This document shows positions 611 to 53,669 of a stretch of DNA of 64,000 nt, in pieces. The DNA is from Cryphonectria parasitica EP155 (Eukaryota; Ascomycota; Sordariomycetes; Diaporthales; Cryphonectriaceae). Below the pieces are notes generated by a model. The model worked only from the letters and a program-made list of their open reading frames with translations, was not told the DNA's origin and did not search any database. The stretch covers positions 1,516,068 to 1,580,067 of the forward strand of contig NW_024468910.1 in assembly GCF_011745365.1 (NCBI RefSeq), written 5' to 3'. The position numbers and the translations under genes were made by a program. Every line of letters starts with the position of its first letter. The first letter of the stretch is position 1.

Positions 611-1225
611 ATATTGAACAGAATCAACAAATCTTGCACTTCCAAGTCTCATTCTCGAAAAACTAAGGAATGTAAAAGTTTTCTTTCCGCTATTCTTCAA
701 AATTCCTTTTCCATGCCTTCCTATTCATTTTGTAAGGATCGGAATATTTCTTTCTGCCAGATCTTTTCTCTCGATTCTTCTCGTTGCGCTGAATACGTTC
801 AACTTAATCGTTCCCGATGCAATGTACAGAGCGTTAGTCCCTCGGAGTTGCGCAAGATTGCTATTCAGCACCAAGAGCTGGAGGATGAGTTGCAAGCTGC
901 TGAGGAAAAGATTCTTCAGCTGTGCAAGCAGAAAAGAATGTAGTTCGAAAAGATGATATATGCTGTTCGCTGCGGCATTGACAATGTGAAGGAGTTGGAT
1001 CGCATTGAGGCTGAGAAGGCTGAAGAGAAGTGTTGCTGTGCTGCTTCTGCTGTGCAGGAAGCTGTATTTGAGGAATCAGCTGTGATTGCTGGAGATTCCT
1101 TTTTTGAAGGGTTTGATTGGAATTCTGTAAATATAGGGAATTCTGTAGTGAACTGGTTGGGTTTTCTGGAAAGTAAGATTCCTAAAGCTTCTGGATCTCG
1201 GTTCAGAGCGGAGCAATCATCCTAG
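611..1225 (+). pseudogene. Antisense zinc-cluster-like ORF of element A
   Basis: Frame of 205 codons running away from the 3' LTR and opposite to pol. The start is ATA where B and G have ATG. One in-frame TAG (941-943) separates an N-terminal part with the cysteine array from a C-terminal coiled-coil and acidic part. The array CX2CX7CX9CX2CX7C has Tyr for two Cys. The tail shows the FDWNSV...W..FLES signature. A perfect GTAAGT lies at 559 and an AACAG acceptor at 621, giving a possible 63-bp leader intron. Confidence 0.7.
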
Positions 1226-7153: not shown

Positions 7154-7592
7154 TGTAATGAGCACTGCAGCAATCCGAAGATTCCTAAGTACACGAAGGG
7201 TTTATGCTAACAAGAGCGGTGTCGGAGTGTCAAGTCCTTGAATACGGAACCGTACAAGTCTTAATAAGCGATGCAAGTGTTCACTGCCTTTGGGGCTATC
7301 AGAGTGGGGGAGTAATCTGATACTTAGATTGACAACTGAAGAGCTATCTGCTGAATCTATCTAATGGTAATGAACATTTCCTTATATATCCAGCTCTTCA
7401 GTATAGCTCACCTTGGCTCACTACTGATCCAGATGATTCAGGCTCACTGGATCATCTAATAATCCAATGATTCATCCCTGTTGTAATTCTAATCTTGAGT
7501 TGTATTGCTTAGTCAGAACGTTGGGTTCTTAATATCTGGTTCTTGTTACTCGTAACCTGTTTTGTAATCTGCATGTTGAATAGGTTATAATA
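7154..7592 (-). repeat. 3' LTR of element B (family 1)
   Basis: 439 bp, TSD tttca immediately to its left. Contains TACGG-AA-CCGTA intact. Confidence 0.9.
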
Positions 7593-7684: not shown

Positions 7685-8299
7685 ATGTTGAACAGAATCA
7701 ACAAATCTTGTACTTCCAAGCCTCGTTCTCGAAAAACTAAGGAATGTAAAAGTCTCCTTTCCGCTATTCTTCAAAATCCCTTTATCATGCCTTCTTATTC
7801 TTTTTGTAAGAGTCGGAGTATTCCTTTCTGTTAAGTTTCTCCTCTCGATTCTTCTCATTACGCTGAATGCGTTCGGCTCAATCGTTCCCAATGCGACATT
7901 CAGAGTATCAGTTCTTCGGAGCTGCGCAAGATCGCTACCCAGCATTAAGAGCTGGAGAATGAGTTACAGGCTGCCAAGGAGAAGGTTCTTCAGCTGTGCA
8001 AGCAGAAGAGAATGTGATTTGAAAAGATGATATGCGCTGTTTGTTGCAGCATCAACAATGTGGAGGAGTTGGATCGTATTGAGGCTGAGAAGGCTGAGGC
8101 TGAGAGGGTGCGTGTGGCTGCTGAGGTGCGGGCTGTGATGGCTGAGGAATCTGCTGTTGTAGCCGGAGATCCTTTCTTTGAGGGTTTTGACTGGAATTCC
8201 GTGGACTTGGGGAATTCTGTGGTGGATTGGTCGGGCTTCCTGGAGAGTGAGATTCCTGAAGCTTCTGAATCTCGGTCCGGGGCGGAGCAATCATCCTAG
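7685..8299 (+). pseudogene. Antisense zinc-cluster-like ORF of element B
   Basis: 205-codon frame starting at an ATG (7685), opposite to pol. Three stops interrupt it: two TAA, and a TGA that corresponds to a Trp in G. The segment 8027-8299 is fully open and encodes the coiled-coil and acidic tail (LDRIEAEKAEAERVR..., then GFDWNSVDLGNSVVDW). The cysteine array has the same spacing as in the other copies, with two Cys changed to Tyr. The stop TAG (8297-8299) shares the palindrome CTAG with the pol stop (8296-8298). A possible leader intron GTAAGT...AACAG spans 7633-7695 (63 bp, as in A). Confidence 0.75.
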
Positions 8300-15518: not shown

Positions 15519-17637
15519 GAAAAGTTATTTTTATATACAAAAAGTTGATTATCTCGGATTCATAATCGAGCTAGAATATATTAAGCTACAGAAAAATAAG
15601 ATAAAAGCTATTAGAAATTAATTAATTCCTAAGAATATTAGAGATATTAGATCTTTCTTTGAATATATTAACTTTTACAAGCAGTTTATTAAGAACTATA
15701 GCTAAATCGCATATTCTCTTACAAATCTTATTAAAAAGAAGCAGCTTTTTAAATAAATCTCTAAAATATAGAAAGCTTTTAATGAAATTATTAAATATAT
15801 TATCTTAGAGCTAATTCTATATAAAGCAGACTTTTATAAATCATTTGAAATTGAAACTGATATATTAGAATATATACTTGGAGAATAACTTAGTTAATAA
15901 AATAACTAAAAATATCTAAGAATTATAAGCAATTTTTTGAGAAAGTTGAATAGCTTAGAAGTTAATTATAGAATTCCAGATTAGAAACTTATAGCAATAA
16001 TAAAAGCTTTCAAAGAATAGCAATATTATCTTATTAATATATAATATTTGATTATAGTTTATTTAGATTATAAGAATCTGATTATATTTATAATAATTAA
16101 GATTTTGAATAAGCAATAAATCAGATAAGCAGAATTTCTCTTATAATTCGATTTCAGAATTGTATACTACAAAAGCTTAGAAAATAAATAAGCAGATACT
16201 TTCAGCAGAAGATCAGATTATTAAGATGCAAATTCCTTAGATATATAAAATATCTTTATTCAAAATAAATTAGAAAATCTTATTAATGTATATAAGAAGC
16301 TGAATGCTATCTTCAGAATTGAATTTTCAGAAAAGAATCTAGAATTAATAATTTCAAATGAATAAGATAGCTATATTAGAAATATATATAGTATATTAGT
16401 ATATGAATATTAAGAAGTTAGAGCAACTTATAAATATATTAAAAGATATTGAAATCTGCTAGATTTTAAGAAAAGAATTGAAAATCTTTTATAATAATAT
16501 AATAGCTGCAAGAAAAATAAAGTAGAAAGATATAAGCTTTATAAATTATTATATTTCTTACTAATACTTATAATTATATAGCAATTTATCAATTTAAATT
16601 TTATTATTAAACTATTTTTCTTATAAGAATTTTTAATTAAAATATAATATAATAGCATTCTAATAATAGTTTGCAAACTGAGTAAGTATGCTTACTTTCT
16701 TTCTTATAAGAAAAGCAATATAGCAGAAGAACTTATATATATATTTCTTAGAATAATTATTGCTAATTATAGCATGCTAAAAGAAATAATCTCTAATAGA
16801 AATAGAAAGTTTAATTCAAAATTCTAAACTTTACTTATAAAACAGCTTGAAATATATTATAGAATATTTATAGCATTTCATCTGCAAATAGATAAATAAA
16901 TAGAAAGAATAAATCAGATTATTAAATAATATCTTTAATATTATATTAATCAGAAATAGAATAATTGAATTAACTTATTATTTCTTGCATAATTCGCTTA
17001 TAATAGCGCAGATATAAGTATAATAAAGAAATCATTATTCTTTATACTCTATAAATATAATTCAATAGCTTATTATAAAGCATTATTAAAAGCAGATATA
17101 GACTCTATAAACAAAAAAGTTAAAAAGATTAAGAAAATTTAGAAAAAACTTTAATTAGAACTATAATTTATTTAGAAATAAATAATATAATATACAAACT
17201 CCAAAAGAATTAAGAAATTAATTCTATAGAAAAGAGATAAAGCTTATTTACTTCAGAAAAATATTAAAATAATTAAGCTTAATAACAAACTTGATTATAA
17301 GAAATTAGAAATATTCAAAATCTTGCAATAAATTTTCTTAATAAATTATAAATTAATACTATCTTATAGAATAAGAATATATCCAATATTTTATATCTTA
17401 TTGCTAGAATTAGCAGTATAGAAGATATTAATAAATAATATAGTAAAAATGGAAAATAATAAATTAGAATATAAGATTGAAAAGATTCTCAAGCATAGAA
17501 GTATAAATAATATATAAGAATATTTTATTAAATGGAAAGATTATTTAGCAAGCAAGAATTTATAAGAATTATAGAAAAATATTGAAAATGCTTAGAAAAA
17601 GATAGCTGAATATTGAAAGAAGAAAATCAGTATCTAA
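15519..17637 (+). pseudogene. Element C pol remnant (RT end, RNase H, integrase, chromodomain)
   Basis: Collinear with the pol of element G from the last third of RT to the chromodomain. The integrase stretch around 16630-16830 and the chromodomain-like stretch around 17450-17550 are recognisable only by alignment with G. Dozens of in-frame TAA/TAG codons stand where G or B has CAA/CAG, so no protein can be made. The final stop (17635-17637) overlaps the stop of the antisense ORF. Confidence 0.7.
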
Positions 17638-18251
17638 AATAATTGCTCTGCTTCAAACTAAGATTTAGAAGCTTCAGAAGCTTTACTCTTTAGAAAATCA
17701 GACTAATTTACTATATTATTTCTCATATTTACAGAATTTCAATTAAATCCTTCAAAAGAAGAATTCTTAGCTGCTACAGCTAACTTCTCAGATATAGCTT
17801 CTCATATAATAAGAGCAGCATAGCGCTGCTTCTTCTTAATCTTCTTATACTCTAGCTTCTTTATGCTAGAAAAGCTTCAGTAAATAGCTCTTATTATCTT
17901 CTCATATTATATCTACTTCTGTTATCAAAGGCGGAGAAGCTTAGCATTTAAAACAATAGCTTTCTTCTCAATAGCTTTCATTTCAGCTTTCAGATATTGA
18001 TATTGAATGCTTATCCAATGATGTTCTGCTATATTCAGCCTCTGAATATTGCATTAGAAGCAGCTCAGGCAAATATACTTAGTATAACAGAAGAAATTCT
18101 TAATAGAAACTTAACAAGACTGAATACTATAACTCTTACAGAAAGAATAGGAAAATATAATAATAGCATTTTTAAGAATTAAGAAAAGAAGAGAATTCTT
18201 TTGTTTAGTTTTCTTAGTACGAGAACAAGATTTGTTAATTCTATTCAATAT
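17634..18251 (-). pseudogene. Antisense zinc-cluster-like ORF of element C (degraded copy)
   Basis: Reading frame of 206 codons on the strand opposite to pol, from an ATA (equivalent of the ATG in B and G) near the 3' LTR to a stop overlapping the pol stop. It has many in-frame stops, but the six positions of the array CX2CX7CX9CX2CX7C are still Cys or Tyr. The copy is dead; its value is in showing conserved length and spacing. See the G copy for the full description. Confidence 0.65.
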
Positions 18252-38851: not shown

Positions 38852-39469
38852 ATATTAAATAGAATTAACAAATCTTGTTCTTGCGCTGAGAAGACTAAAT
38901 AAAAGAATTCCCTTCTTTTCTTAATCCTTACAAATGCTATTACTATATCTTTCTATTCTTTCTGTAAGAGTTGTAGTATTCAGTTTTGTTAAGTTTCCGC
39001 TAAGAATTCCTCCTGTTGCGCTGAATATATTTGTCTGAGCTGCTCTCAGTATGATGTTCAAGAGCTAAGCGCTGCGGAAATTTGTTGGATAGGTGTCTAA
39101 TACTAACGCCTGGAGAACCAACTCGAGAGTGCTGAGGGGCGGCTGCACGACGCTGCTGCGGAGGTGAAACGTTTGTGGAAGCAGAAACGTCTGTAGTTTG
39201 AGAGGATGATGAAAGCCGTTTGCCGAGGCCTTTTCAGCGTGAAGGAGCTAGAGCATGAGGAGGCTAAGGAGGAGCGAGCTTGTATTGCTGCTGGGATTCG
39301 TTCTGTGATTGCAGAGGAGTCTGCTGCTGTTGCCAGGGATTCTTCCTTTGAGGGTTTCGACTGGAATTCCGTGGATGTAGAGAATTCAGTGATAGATTAG
39401 TTGGATTTTCTGGAGAGTGAGGTTTCTGAAGCCCCTGGGTTTCGGTTTGGGGCGGAGCGATTATCCTAG
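38852..39469 (+). pseudogene. Antisense zinc-cluster-like ORF of element H
   Basis: 206-codon frame opposite to pol, starting at ATA where B has ATG. The segment 39206-39400 is open and ends in the SFEGFDWNSVD signature. The cysteine array keeps its spacing, with three Cys replaced by Tyr. Six or seven stops of the CAG/CAA/TGG-derived type. This copy is from a diverged subfamily, which makes the shared length and motifs informative. Confidence 0.7.
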
Positions 39470-46239: not shown

Positions 46240-46692
46240 TGTTATGACCCATCCAACATGCAGGTCACGAAACAGGTCACGAGTAACAAGGACCAGGTGT
46301 CAAGAATCCAACGTTCTGACAAAGCATTGATTACATAACCCAGGGTTAGGGTTGTAAAGGAGGGAGGATCGTTGGGCTCGCCAGCGATCCCAACGAGCTT
46401 CACACCTTGGATCGCTAGACTCGCCAGCGATCCCAACGAGCTACACTGAAGAGCTGGATATATAACCACACGTTCATTACCATTAGACAGATCATCGTAC
46501 ATAGCTCTTCAGTTATCAATTTAAGTATTCAGTTTTATACACTGAGTAGCCCCAAAAGCAGTGAACACTTGCATCGCTTATTAGGACTTGTACGGTTCTG
46601 TATTCAAGAACTTGACACTTTGATACCGCTCTTGTTAGCATAAACCTCTTCGTATACTTAGGAATCTTCGGATTGCTGCAGTGCTCATTATA
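46240..46692 (+). repeat. 5' LTR of element G (family 1, variant centre)
   Basis: 453 bp. The central module (46372-46445) contains cgccagcgatcccaacgagc twice, unlike the A/B/C LTRs. Confidence 0.92.
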
Positions 46693-46744: not shown

Positions 46745-47790
46745 GGAATACGATAGCTCCTCCAGGAACCCCTTCGTTCTCGCGCGCTTCTACTCAGGAG
46801 GAACTGGTCAACCAGGTGTACTAGCTTACCCAGCGTATCCAGGATCTGCGCAAACAACAGCAGGCCCAGAGCGCCACCATCGCTAACCAGCAGGCTCAGC
46901 TAGCTCAACAGGCTCAGCAGGCGCAGTCTACCTCTGTGACCACCAGTGGCGCTGGAAAAGCGTATAAGATGGACAAGCCTGCTATATACGATGGCAACCA
47001 GAAAACGCTATATAGATTCCTCACCCACTGCAGAGCGTATTTCCTGCACTACGAGATCCAGTTCACCAAGGAATCTGAGAAAGTTATCCTTGCAGAGACT
47101 CGTTTCGAAAAGAATGCTCTTATCTGGTATAAATCTTCTCTGCACAATCACTTGGAGCATCAGAACAATCCCAACGCACATATCCAGAGTACTAAGAATA
47201 TATTCGATTCCTTTGAAAGCTTTAAGAAAGCTCTCAAAGAGATCTTTAGCAACCCCAACAAAGAACGCATTACAGCTCAGCAGCTTATAAATCTCAAGCA
47301 GACTAAATCAGCTTCTACTTATACAGTTAAGTTCAAGCAACTCTCAGCATAACTTCCGTAGGAAGATAAGAATCTTATGAAGCATTATTACAAGGAACTC
47401 AAGAACGACATTAAAGATAAAATCTCCAAGCAGAATTAGCTGGAGAACTTTACAATGTTCTCCAATCAAGCTATCCGTATCAACAACTGTCTGTATGAAC
47501 GATGAATAGAGAAATTCAAGAAAGAAGAAAGCTAGACTTGAAGATTTCCAGCTAATACAGGCAAGAAACTCCAAAACAAGAATAGCGGTTGATATAGCAG
47601 TACAGCTCAGAGCAGCACTATGCATGCTGATCCCATAAAGCTCAACGCTGCCAATAGGCAGTATAGCAAGAGGAACAGCATTACTTGCTACAACTGCAAC
47701 AAACAAGAATACATTGCATGCAACTGCTATTAATCCTGGAAGAACAAATAGCAATCAGTTCAGAAAGAACGCTAGATGAATATCGCTTGG
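46745..47790 (+). pseudogene. Element G gag
   Basis: Gln-rich coiled N-terminus (46800-46930), capsid-like core open from 46936 to 47352 (ends FKQLSA, then TAA), and a zinc knuckle near 47690-47735 reading CYNCNKQEYIACNC, where the knuckle His is Tyr. Stops at about 46830 and 47350 are CAG/CAA-derived. The gag frame shows another open stretch at 48250-48453. Confidence 0.8.
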
Positions 47791-48839: not shown

Positions 48840-51800
48840 ATAGGATTGCTTGTAAAGAGACTGCAGATGATCAGACTAGAACAGTCCCTATGTGAAGCTT
48901 CTAGGATAGATTACGCTTACATCAAGTTCGATATATACATTCAAGGATACAAATACAGCATACTATTGAATAGTAGCGCTCAGGGAAACTTCATATTCCC
49001 ATACATCATCAATCAGGCACAACTACAATGGAAATGAAAGAGATATCCATACACTCTTAGCATTGTAGAAGGATAATCTGTTGCATATAATCAAGGAGTA
49101 ATTGATAAGAAGACTGATTATCTACCTGTTTTGATTCAAGGATGTGTAATCAGAGCTTCTTTTGATATTACGGATATGGTATAATATGAGCTGATTATGG
49201 GGCTTCTATGGCTCAAAGAGCATAATTCTCGAATCGATTGGACTACTGGCCAGATCTCATGGAAACAAGCTGTATCCAGAGAGATAATCACAATCAACAG
49301 CGCAGGATCGAAGCTAGTGGTTGAAGAATACTCAGGAAAAGGAGCTTTATACGACTTCATACATATTTCCAAACCAGCAGGGCTGGCAGTTCAAGGAGAA
49401 GAACCTAGTAACAAGCGAATCCAAACAGTGCTAGGGCGCTAACAGGTTAGCAAAACAACGGAAGCGAGACTCTCAGCAAGTCGGTCCGCCCTGGAGCGAT
49501 AAGAAGAAGCTTTAGAATGTGGATTGTGGATCCATACGGGAAAAACCTCGAAACCAGGCCCTTGAACGCTCGGTCCAGCTCGGAGCGAACGCTCAAAGCT
49601 CTCAAAAACGTTACCAAAAACAACGAACGAAAAGAAGCATGCTCAGCAGTACTTACTGTTCCTCCAGATAGCAGAAACAGCACAAGAACCAGAACCAATA
49701 CTCGCGAATATACCACAAGAATATCATAAGTTCAAGAAACTATTCCAGGAAGAATTGGATACGGGATTGCCAGAATACAGCCCATACAATCACGAGATCC
49801 CGCTATAAGAAGGGAAACAGCTCAAATTCTTCTCTATTTACAGACTAGATAAGGCATAGCTAGAAGCACTTAGGGAATACCTCGACGAGAACCTTAAGAA
49901 AGAATACATACAACCATTGCAATCATCAGCAGAATACCCCATTCTGTTTGTATCCAAGAAAAATAGCAAGCTCAAGCTATGCATTGATTACAAGCAACTC
50001 AACAATATTACAATCAAGAACCGATACTCGTTACTACTCATCAAGGAACTACGAGATAGGTTGCAAGGAGCTCAGTGGTTTACAGTTCTAGATCTAAAAG
50101 AAGCTTACAATCTAATCAGAGTAAAGAAAGGAGAAGAATGGAAAACTGCTTTCAGAATACACTACGAATACTACGAATATTTGATTATGCTCTTTAGTTT
50201 AACGAATATCCCAGCTTCATTCCAGGAAATAATCAATCACGTTCTATGCGAGTATCTGAATCAGTTCATTATTGCTTATCTCGATAATATTCTTATCTAC
50301 TCTCGAATACTGGAAGAGTACAAGAAACATGTGAAGATAGTGTTGCAAATGCTCCAGAATGCGAAACTCCTTGTAAAACCTGCAAAGAGCTACTTTTACA
50401 TACAAAAAGTTGACTATCTCGGATTCACAATCAAGCTAGAATGCATCAAGCTATAGAAAAATAAGGTGGAAGCTGTTAGAAACTAGCCAATTCCCAGGAA
50501 TATCAGGAATGTTAGGTCTTTCCTCGGATATATCAACTTCTACAGGCAGTTCATTAGAAACTACAGCTGGATTGTATACTCTCTTACAAATCTCACCAAA
50601 AAGGAATAGCCTTTCGAATGGATCTCCAAGGCACAAGAAGCCTTCGATGAGATCATCAGGCATATTATCTCAGAACCAATTCTGTATGAAGCAGATCTCC
50701 ACAAACCCTTTGAAGTTGAGACTAATGCATCAGAATATGCACTCAGAGAACAACTTAGTTAGCAAAACAACCAAGAACATCTAAGAATTGTAAGCAACTT
50801 CTCAAAGAAGTTGAATAGCTCGGAAATCAACTACAGAATCCCTAATTAGGAACTCATAGCAATAGTAAAAGCCTTTGAAAAGTAGCAATACTATCTTATT
50901 AGCACATAACACCCGATTATAGTTTACTCAGATCACAAGAATCTGATTATATTCATAACAATCAAGGTTTTGAATAAGCAACAAGTTAGATAAGCAGAAT
51001 TCCTCTTACAATTCAACTTTAAGATTATATACTGCAAAGGCTTGGAGAACGGATAAGCAGACGCTCTCAGCAGAAGATCAGACTATTGAGATGCAGATTC
51101 TTCGGATATATAGAACATCTTCGCCCAAGATGAGTTAGAAAACCTCATTAATGCATACAGGGAACTGAATGCAGCTCTCAGGATCGGATCCTCGGAAAGA
51201 GATCCAGAATCAATGACTCCGAACGAACAAAACAACTACATCAAGGATATATACAGTGCACCAGCATATGGGCATCAGAGAGTTAGAGCAACCTATGAAT
51301 ACATCAAAAGATACTGGAACTTATTAGATCTTAGGAAAAGGATTGAGAACATTCTATAATAATGCAATAGCTGCAAAAAGAATAAAGCAGAAAGATACAA
51401 GCCTTACAGACTACTGCATCCCTTACTAATACTTACAACTATTTAGCAATCTATCAGTCTAAACTTCATTACTAAGCTATCTCTCTTACGAGAACCCTTA
51501 ACTAAGATGTAATACAATAGCATTCTAGTAGTAGTTTGCAGACTGAGCAAGTATGCTTATTTTCTCTCCTATAAGGAAAGCAGTATAGCAGAAGAACTCG
51601 CATATGCATTCCTCAGAACAATTATTGCTAACTACAGTATATCAGAAGAAATGATCTCCGATAGAGATAGAAAGTTCAACTTGAAGTTTTGAACTTCGCT
51701 TATAAAACAGCTCGGAATATACTACAGAATATCCATAGCATTTCATTCATAAACAGATGAATAGATAGAAAGAATAAATCAGGTTGTTGAACAGTATCTT

Positions 51801-52502
51801 CAATACTATATTAACCAGAAACAGAATAACTGAGTTGATCTGTTGCCTCTTGTACAGTTCGCTTATAACAGTGCAGATATAAGCATGATAAAGAAATCAT
51901 TATTCTTCATACTCTATAGATATAATCCAACAGCTTATTATGAAGCACTGCAAGAAGCAGATGCAGAAGCTGCGGATAAAAGGGTTAAAAAGATCAAGAA
52001 AGTTCAGGAGGAACTCCGATTAGAATTACAATTCGTTCAGAAACGAATAGTACGATATGCAAACTCTAAGAGGATTGAGAAACTAATCCTACAGGAGGGA
52101 GATAAGGCTTATCTACTTCGAAAAAACATCAAAATAATCAGATCCAGCGACAAACTTGACTATAAAAAGTTGGAACTATTCAAAATTCTACGAAAAATCT
52201 CCCCAGTCAACTACGAACTTGCACTACCTCATAGAATGAGAATACACCCAGTTTTCCACATCTCACTGCTGGAATCAGCAGCACAGGAAATACTAACAGA
52301 TAATACAGCAGAAGTAGAAAACAATGAATCAGAGTATGAGATGGAAAAGATTCTTAAGCACAGAAGCACAGACAATACGAGGGAATATCTTATCAAATGG
52401 AAAGATTACTCAGCAAGCGAAAATTCTTGAGAATCACAGAAAAACATTAAAAATGCTTAGGGAAAAGTAGCTGAATATTGGAAAAGGAAAGCTAGCACCT
52501 AA
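48840..52502 (+). pseudogene. Element G pol: protease, RT, RNase H, integrase, chromodomain
   Basis: Protease near 48970: active site NSSAQGNF, from DSGAQGNF. RT 49800-50456: LDLKEAY carries the first catalytic Asp; the YLDD box is YLDN, so RT is dead. RNase H 50640-51100 has YSDHKNL. Integrase 51230-51990: zinc-finger remnant, N for the first catalytic Asp (SLNFITKL), SDRDRKF intact, ERINQ present. The 51843-52430 stretch is open and includes the integrase tail and the chromodomain (EYEMEKILKHR...EYLIKWKDY). The stop (52500-52502) overlaps the antisense ORF stop. Confidence 0.85.
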
Positions 52503-53125
52503 GACAACCGCTCCGCCCCGAAGCGAGATCCAGAAGCTTCAGAGATCTCGCTCTCCAGGAAACTCGACCAATCTACTACTGCATTCCCCAGATCCACAGA
52601 ATTCCAGTCAAAACTCTCAAAAGAAGAATCTCCAGCCACAATAGCAGATTCCTCAGCTACTACAGCCTGCACTTCAGCAGCAACACGCACCCTCTCAGCC
52701 TCAGCTTCCTCAGCCTCCTCTTTCTCAAGCTCTTCGAAGTTCTTGAGACCTCGACGAATAGCTCGAGATATCCTCTTATGCCACATCTTCTTTTGTTAAT
52801 GCAGTTGAAGCAACTTCAACTCCAACTCTTCTATCTCATCCTCCAGCTTTCGATGCTGAGTAGAGATAAGGAGGAGTTCGGCAGCGTTCGTCGGCTCCAG
52901 AACATCGCACTTAGCGCGATTCTGGGAAACGCACTCCGAGCAACGGGATGAATCATGAGGAGAAACGATATACGATTGCAGGCCTCAACTGTTGCAATAA
53001 GAACAGGGATGCATATCGAAACCGTTTGAAAGAATGGACTGAAGAAGGAGATTTTTCTGCTTCTTTTTATTGGAGCGAGGATTCGAGGATTTCGGTTTTG
53101 CAATTTTGTTGATTCTGTTCGGCAT
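52499..53125 (-). pseudogene. Antisense zinc-cluster, coiled-coil ORF of element G (best copy)
   Basis: 209 codons from ATG 53125 to TAG 52499, opposite to pol and reading away from the 3' LTR. The basic N-terminus (about residues 8-25) precedes a six-position array C41-X2-C44-X7-Y52-X9-C62-X2-C65-X7-C73. Y52 is TAT where other copies have Cys, so the ancestor is CX2CX7CX9CX2CX7C, close to the fungal Zn2Cys6 binuclear cluster (consensus CX2CX6CX5-12CX2CX6-8C). Residues about 85-150 form a Glu/Leu/Lys coiled coil, as often follows that domain. The tail is acidic with FDWNSVDLG...VDW..FLE. Two stops (TGA for a probable CGA; a TAA near residue 109) break it. I recall related uncharacterised fungal proteins. 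It could bind DNA; not shown. Confidence 0.75.
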
Positions 53126-53216: not shown

Positions 53217-53669
53217 TATTATAATCCATCCAATATACAGGTTATGAAACAGGTCACGAGTAACAAGGATCAGGTATCAAGAATCCAACGTTCTGATAAA
53301 GCATTGATTACATAATCCAGGGTTAGAGTTGTAAAGGAGGGAGGATCGTTGGGCTCGCCAGCGATTCCAACGAGCTTCATACCTTGGATCGCTAGACTTG
53401 CCAGCAATCCCAACGAGCCACACTGAAGAGCTGGATATATAACCATACGTTCATTACCATTAGACAGATCATTGTACATAGCTCTTCAGTTATCAATCTA
53501 AGTATTCAGTTTCATATACTGAGTAGCCCCAAAGGCAGTGAATACTTGCATTGCTTATTAGAACTTGTACGGTTCCGTATTCAAGGACTTGACACTTTGA
53601 CACCGCTCTTGTTAGCATAAACCCCTTCGTGTACTTAGGAATCTTCGGATTGCTGCAGTGCTCATTACA
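53217..53669 (+). repeat. 3' LTR of element G (family 1)
   Basis: 453 bp, the same length as the 5' LTR, followed by TSD tactg. It carries the half-sites TACGG-TT-CCGTA near 53566-53580. Confidence 0.92.

Follow-up and report, generated by a model that had tools for sequence, protein, structure and literature searches.

Human T-cell leukemia virus 1 (HTLV-1), an element bounded by long terminal repeats (LTRs), carries at its 3′ end the antisense gene HBZ, which encodes a regulator with a dimerizing helix. Among fungal elements, the closest described gene is brtn, an additional antisense gene of Boty-like retrotransposons in Botrytis cinerea (Zhao et al. 2011, Virology 417:248, as cited in passages of PMC8365987 and PMC7264820). 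Antisense open reading frames (aORFs) are also carried by the plant elements Grande, RIRE2, Retand and PvRetro13, none of them described as encoding a zinc-cluster protein in a 2020 review (PMC7264820), according to which no antisense ORF of an LTR retrotransposon had yet been found clearly similar to another protein. Here we consider a 64,000-nt stretch (positions 1,516,068–1,580,067) of contig NW_024468910.1, contig C2 below, of the chestnut blight fungus Cryphonectria parasitica EP155 (hereafter the window), and in particular its LTR retrotransposon, element G, in which an antisense frame (53125–52499), convergent with pol, occupies the space from the chromodomain to the 3′ LTR. Judged by sequence comparison, the protein of this frame is a homologue of BRTN, and both the gene and its antisense location are already known as brtn. 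An earlier note on this DNA, which knew of no described fungal Ty3/gypsy element with such a gene, is superseded on this point, brtn having been known since 2011. New here are a presence in Cryphonectria that has been tested for selection, a broader distribution of the protein family, and the reading of its cysteine cluster as Zn2Cys6-like.

A brtn homologue outside Botrytis

The C. parasitica EP155 genome (43.8 Mb, 17 contigs) was searched for copies of the frame. Copy counts are lower bounds, as the best 40 of 282 candidates from a DNA search and the best 150 of 378 from a protein search were scored. The 63 copies analysed comprise 40 close copies (copy G included), 19 more distant ones and the four other copies of the window. 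Only four of the 63 (L017, L022, L079 and L080) have no in-frame stop, and the same four are the only ones free of internal stops among the best 150 places of the protein search. P0001, the natural product of L017, served as the query for relatives and found 15. A profile built from P0001 and these 15 matches at least 95 proteins at E ≤ 0.001, counted among the best 7991 word-sharing candidates scored, and one of them is P0019, named Putative BRTN (Botryotinia), at E 6e-37. A direct comparison of P0001 with P0019 gives 43% identity across 116 residues (BLASTP E 2e-24, one comparison). The setting is also alike: brtn of Boty-like elements, like the window gene, is antisense, occupies the 3′ end of a chromodomain-bearing gag-pol element, and encodes a homologous protein. 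Element G resembles the carrier of BRTN in being an LTR element with gag, reverse transcriptase, integrase (SH3) and chromodomain, a likeness by domain content. The window gene differs in that its host is another fungus, its identity to BRTN reaches only the level just given, and its copies are mutated.

As proteins, the BRTN family extends well past Botrytis and Sclerotinia. Nine named genera of ascomycetes have relatives (Botrytis, Monilinia, Sclerotinia, Verticillium, Fusarium, Ilyonectria, Cytospora, Pyricularia and Parathielavia), and another is found in a Xylariaceae species. The C. parasitica genome itself holds a second subfamily, P0014 and P0016, both on contig C2 and annotated as hypothetical proteins; these are distant relatives (34% identity) whose helical middle is longer. 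A Monilinia transcript resembling a truncated Pol plus BRTN, its strand unstated in the passage of PMC5987419 that describes it, is a hint of transcription.

Evidence that the frame is a selected gene

Is the antisense frame a gene in its own right? Openness alone is weak evidence, because the in-register sense frame is also nearly stop-free, with 0–3 stops per copy in the four whose antisense frame is stop-free, L080 having none. Indeed, L080 (G000:C2:1073120-1073760) has both frames stop-free over 200 codons. The case is carried by the pattern of substitution, for which transversions were counted because repeat-induced point mutation (RIP) makes transitions. First, transversions per site and pair among the 40 close copies are 0.0023, 0.0038 and 0.0128 at codon positions 1, 2 and 3. 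They are flat by phase in the LTR-side control flank (0.160, 0.157, 0.167), which extends beyond the LTR into host sequence, so that only its phase flatness counts; in the chromodomain-side flank one phase stands higher (0.018, 0.020, 0.031), as the nearby pol coding sequence would predict. Second, L017 compared with 23 other copies gives 0.147, 0.108 and 0.205 at the three positions. The signal of selection is weaker in the distant set, with a ratio of position 2 to fourfold sites of 0.62 versus 0.19. Third, the ratio of nonsynonymous to synonymous divergence (dN/dS), which the earlier note had proposed to compute, was obtained for natural copies and indicates constraint on the antisense frame. 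By the Nei–Gojobori method (NG86), the 21 pairs formed by seven chosen natural sequences, with dS reaching saturation in some of them (values up to 4.8), give 0.12–0.42 for the antisense frame and 0.37–1.25 for the sense register, the antisense value being the lower in 21 of 21. The antisense frame is thus a real gene under purifying selection, its protein having been kept before the copies mutated.

Two other explanations bear on these data. An open frame that arose by chance, as a by-product of composition or of the sense-strand gene, would sit well with the fair openness of the sense register. It is contradicted by the position that changes fastest, which is antisense codon position 3, by the lower antisense dN/dS in every pair, and by the conservation of the protein family across fungi. 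Barring alignment error, the dN/dS comparison rules chance out, and we give it next to no credence. Alternatively, the antisense RNA rather than the protein might matter, by pairing with the sense RNA and feeding small RNAs or silencing. Double-stranded RNA is expected from the convergent layout, and small RNAs of BcGypsy1 and BcGypsy3 have been described in Botrytis (in a passage of PMC8365987). The codon-position-specific constraint and the low antisense dN/dS nevertheless imply that the protein sequence was kept, which makes a role of the RNA in place of the protein improbable.

Damage to the copies in the window and the genome

The earlier note reported a frame of 205–209 codons, opposite to pol and lying between the chromodomain and the 3′ LTR, in each of five named window copies, and an antisense frame of about 205 codons is indeed present there, between pol or the chromodomain and the LTR, in 5 of 5 (Table 1). 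As open genes the frames do not stand, since all five contain internal stops; nor is the six-position array that the note saw in every copy complete, since none of the five has all six cysteines and copy C has only three. The layout recurs in the genome, where the pol C-terminus lies opposite to the antisense frame in 29 of 30 copies and LTR sequence is present in 30 of 30. In element G, the matches to gag, RVT_1, SH3 and Chromo are above the Pfam cut-offs, the integrase zinc domain is under its cut-off, and the two LTRs are 93.3% identical.

Table 1. Positions in the window of the parts of element G and of the antisense frames of the five copies. Remarks on the frames include the opposite-strand pol C-terminal region.
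Feature	Position	Strand	Remarks
Copy G, antisense (brtn-like) frame	52499..53125	-	209 codons including stop; 2 internal stops; 1/6 Cys lost; locus L009; frame 53125-52502, pol C-terminal region 51834-52427
5′ LTR, element G	46242..46690	+	limits approximate; 449-nt direct repeat with 53219-53667
3′ LTR, element G	53219..53667	+	limits approximate; ~90 nt from antisense ATG
gag piece, element G	46825..47352	+	Pfam Retrotrans_gag, E 7e-8
Reverse transcriptase piece, element G	49860..50456	+	Pfam RVT_1, E 9e-26
Integrase C-terminus (SH3) and chromodomain start, element G	51834..52430	+	Pfam SH3_Tf2-1 E 2e-16, Chromo E 4e-8
Copy A, antisense frame	611..1225	+	1 internal stop; 4/6 Cys kept; frame 617-1222, pol C-terminal region 1893-1303
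Copy B, antisense frame	7685..8299	+	3 internal stops; 4/6 Cys kept; frame 7688-8296, pol C-terminal region 8967-8374
Copy C, antisense frame	17634..18251	-	11 internal stops; 3/6 Cys kept; frame 18245-17643, pol C-terminal region 16969-17559
Copy H, antisense frame	38852..39469	+	6 internal stops; 3/6 Cys kept; frame 38858-39466, pol C-terminal region 40110-39544

What kind of damage is this? RIP, a transition bias known from fungi of this kind, has been described for Botrytis (in a passage of PMC8365987). In C. parasitica, 203 of 256 in-frame stops lie at columns where Arg, Trp or Gln is commonest, and 41 lie at Lys columns. The cysteine cells of the 63 copies (63 × 6 = 378) hold 318 Cys, 59 Tyr and 1 gap, bearing out the statement of the earlier note that a lost cysteine is always Tyr (59 of 59 changed cysteines); all six cysteines are kept in 22 of the 63. 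TA/AT indices range from 0.37 to 0.89 across the 40 close copies. The placing of the stops, the Cys-to-Tyr changes and the TA/AT indices of the copies fit RIP.

The window lies inside C2:179,501-2,084,312, a stretch of scaffold 2 that a passage of PMC7935491 ties to the mating-type locus and describes as rich in transposable elements. This stretch, ~4% of the genome, contains 65 of the 150 antisense-frame places scored.

A divergent Zn2Cys6-like cluster

The spacing of the Zn2Cys6 domain (PF00172) is CX2CX6CX5-12CX2CX6-8C. The stop-free P0001 has CX2CX7CX9CX2CX7C, the form of the window subfamily; a six-cysteine array is present in 68 of 72 relatives, and the Zn2Cys6 spacing fits 54 of these 68. 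Similarity beyond spacing is weak, and it takes several forms. For example, Pfam Zn_clus matches at E ≤ 1 in 36 of the 72 relatives, and its gathering cut-off (21 bits) is passed by two of 50 singly tabulated ones, P0034 (22.3 bits) and P0041 (22.7 bits); P0001 itself gives no match to Zn_clus. A hidden Markov model (HMM) of host Zn2Cys6 domains scores the relatives at a mean of 11.9 bits, compared with 5.4 for cysteine-preserving shuffles, and hhalign on the cluster gives E 1.7e-4 with a probability of 49%. With Foldseek, the structural model of P0001 finds Gal4, Hap1 or Leu3 in 8 of 8 matches, all weak (E 0.5–5.8), and the BRTN model finds two unrelated matches only. Against PDB sequences, P0001 has a single non-significant match, and the family profile has 21 weak ones, the best of them (E 0.039) an unrelated coiled coil; seven of the 21 are GAL4, PUT3, LAC9 or Cep3, the last also a Zn2Cys6 protein. 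The cluster is probably a divergent Zn2Cys6-like domain, and on these scores its likeness to Zn2Cys6 appears to go beyond the cysteines. The zinc-cluster reading of the earlier note is thereby upheld in part: the six-cysteine domain resembles Zn_clus and has weak structural matches, and against this stand the missing P0001 match and the small number of relatives above the cut-off. No zinc-cluster reading of the BRTN family was found among the openly licensed papers searched, which do not include Zhao et al. 2011, a paper that may describe the cysteines.

Compared with host Zn2Cys6 domains, the two halves of the cluster seem to stand in swapped order, a lead to which several comparisons point. 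An Asp comes after cysteine 6 in 59 of 68 relatives, compared with cysteine 3 in 12 of 15 host domains, and the mean charges of the two halves are 1.2 and 1.6 in relatives and 3.9 and 0.4 in host domains. The host HMM favours the swapped order for 61 of 68 relatives and none of 15 host domains, and half-profiles do so for 38 of 44 relatives and none of 11 host domains; in these counts the relatives are not independent, and scores are low in both orders. Indeed, with cysteines excluded, the half-profile means are −8.0 and −1.1 bits, negative for both orders. Of 17 tabulated Zn_clus matches, 13 place the first half of the family on the later part of the profile, and four span both halves in the normal order. 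Because the basic segment and Asp are absent from the first half, the family is called Zn2Cys6-like, rather than a member.

Might the domain instead be a zinc-binding fold of independent origin whose spacing is convergent, unrelated to Zn2Cys6 by descent? Such an origin would account for the weakness of the similarity, the seven residues that separate cysteines 2 and 3 of the window subfamily, the Asp after cysteine 6 rather than 3, and the better match of the halves when swapped. It fits less well with the two relatives above the Pfam cut-off, the non-cysteine residues that outscore shuffles, and the four tabulated matches in normal order. We regard an independent fold as rather unlikely.

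What might the protein do?

Long helices are predicted after the cluster. The N-terminus is positive in 58 of 68 relatives; the last 50 residues are negative in 67 of 68 and, likewise in 67 of 68, contain a Trp or Phe. The coiled coil and acidic tail named in the earlier note are thus recovered in the family, as predicted helices in the first case. The order of six-cysteine array, helices and acidic region is shared with the Zn2Cys6 regulators Gal4, Hap1, Leu3 and Put3. The BRTN-type protein differs from these in having ~200 residues, no middle homology domain and only weak similarity, in being borne by a retrotransposon, and in the placing of the basic and Asp signature, which falls in the opposite cysteine half.

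We lean slightly toward a reading in which the window frame is a RIP-damaged copy of brtn, a gene of Boty-like Ty3/gypsy chromoviruses that selection maintained during the active life of the elements, and the BRTN-type protein, a product of an antisense transcript, is a nuclear regulator that binds DNA as a dimer; expression, zinc binding and DNA binding are inferred. Specifically, a separate antisense mRNA would begin on the side of the 3′ LTR, at a distance of ~90 nt from the ATG. The protein would enter the nucleus and pair via its helices, the cluster would bind DNA, and the acidic aromatic tail would affect transcription, with the element's own LTRs as the likeliest target. HBZ would be a parallel in working rather than in family, as a regulator with a dimerizing helix encoded by an antisense gene at the 3′ end. 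It differs in having a bZIP instead of a zinc cluster and in belonging to a retrovirus, and homology is not claimed.

Two results weigh against the regulator: the absence of the basic and Asp signature from the first cysteine half, and the outcome of a search for an LTR target site. The candidate site, the palindrome CGGAACCG, was seen in 15 of 27 flanks, a count that includes near-duplicates, and stands there ~450 nt upstream of the antisense ATG. Its conservation ranks only 181 of 603 8-base windows in 23 flanks, four of the 27 (three close copies of L017, and L093) having been dropped from the ranking. It is intact in 23 of 40 close copies and damaged in the stop-free L079 and L080. On these counts, CGGAACCG was rejected as evidence of a target site. 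CGG/CCG triplets are under the shuffle mean in all four LTRs examined, and the LTR site sought is not supported. In the window, CGGAACCG occurs at 53570–53577 (G), 165–172 (A) and 7245–7252 (B), at a similar distance to the antisense ATG.

The protein might instead be an accessory factor of retrotransposition, for example in nuclear import of the cDNA complex or in the choice of integration site, with the cluster binding nucleic acid or a partner. Selection on the protein is compatible with any role in the element cycle, the basic N-terminus would suit such a factor, and roles of this kind have been proposed for antisense ORFs in the review PMC7264820. The order of cluster, helices and acidic aromatic tail suits a regulator better, by resemblance only. 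We consider the accessory factor a doubtful alternative to the regulator.

Implications

What would a regulator of this kind mean for the family? Tentatively, and at a strength well short of an even chance, the BRTN family may be a widespread retrotransposon-borne lineage of transcription regulators with a swapped-half Zn2Cys6-type cluster, produced from an antisense transcript of the 3′ LTR and controlling the element and perhaps host genes, which would make it a counterpart of HBZ among fungi in its logic. For an antisense ORF of LTR retrotransposons, the zinc-cluster reading gives a direct, testable role in the binding of zinc, DNA and the LTR.
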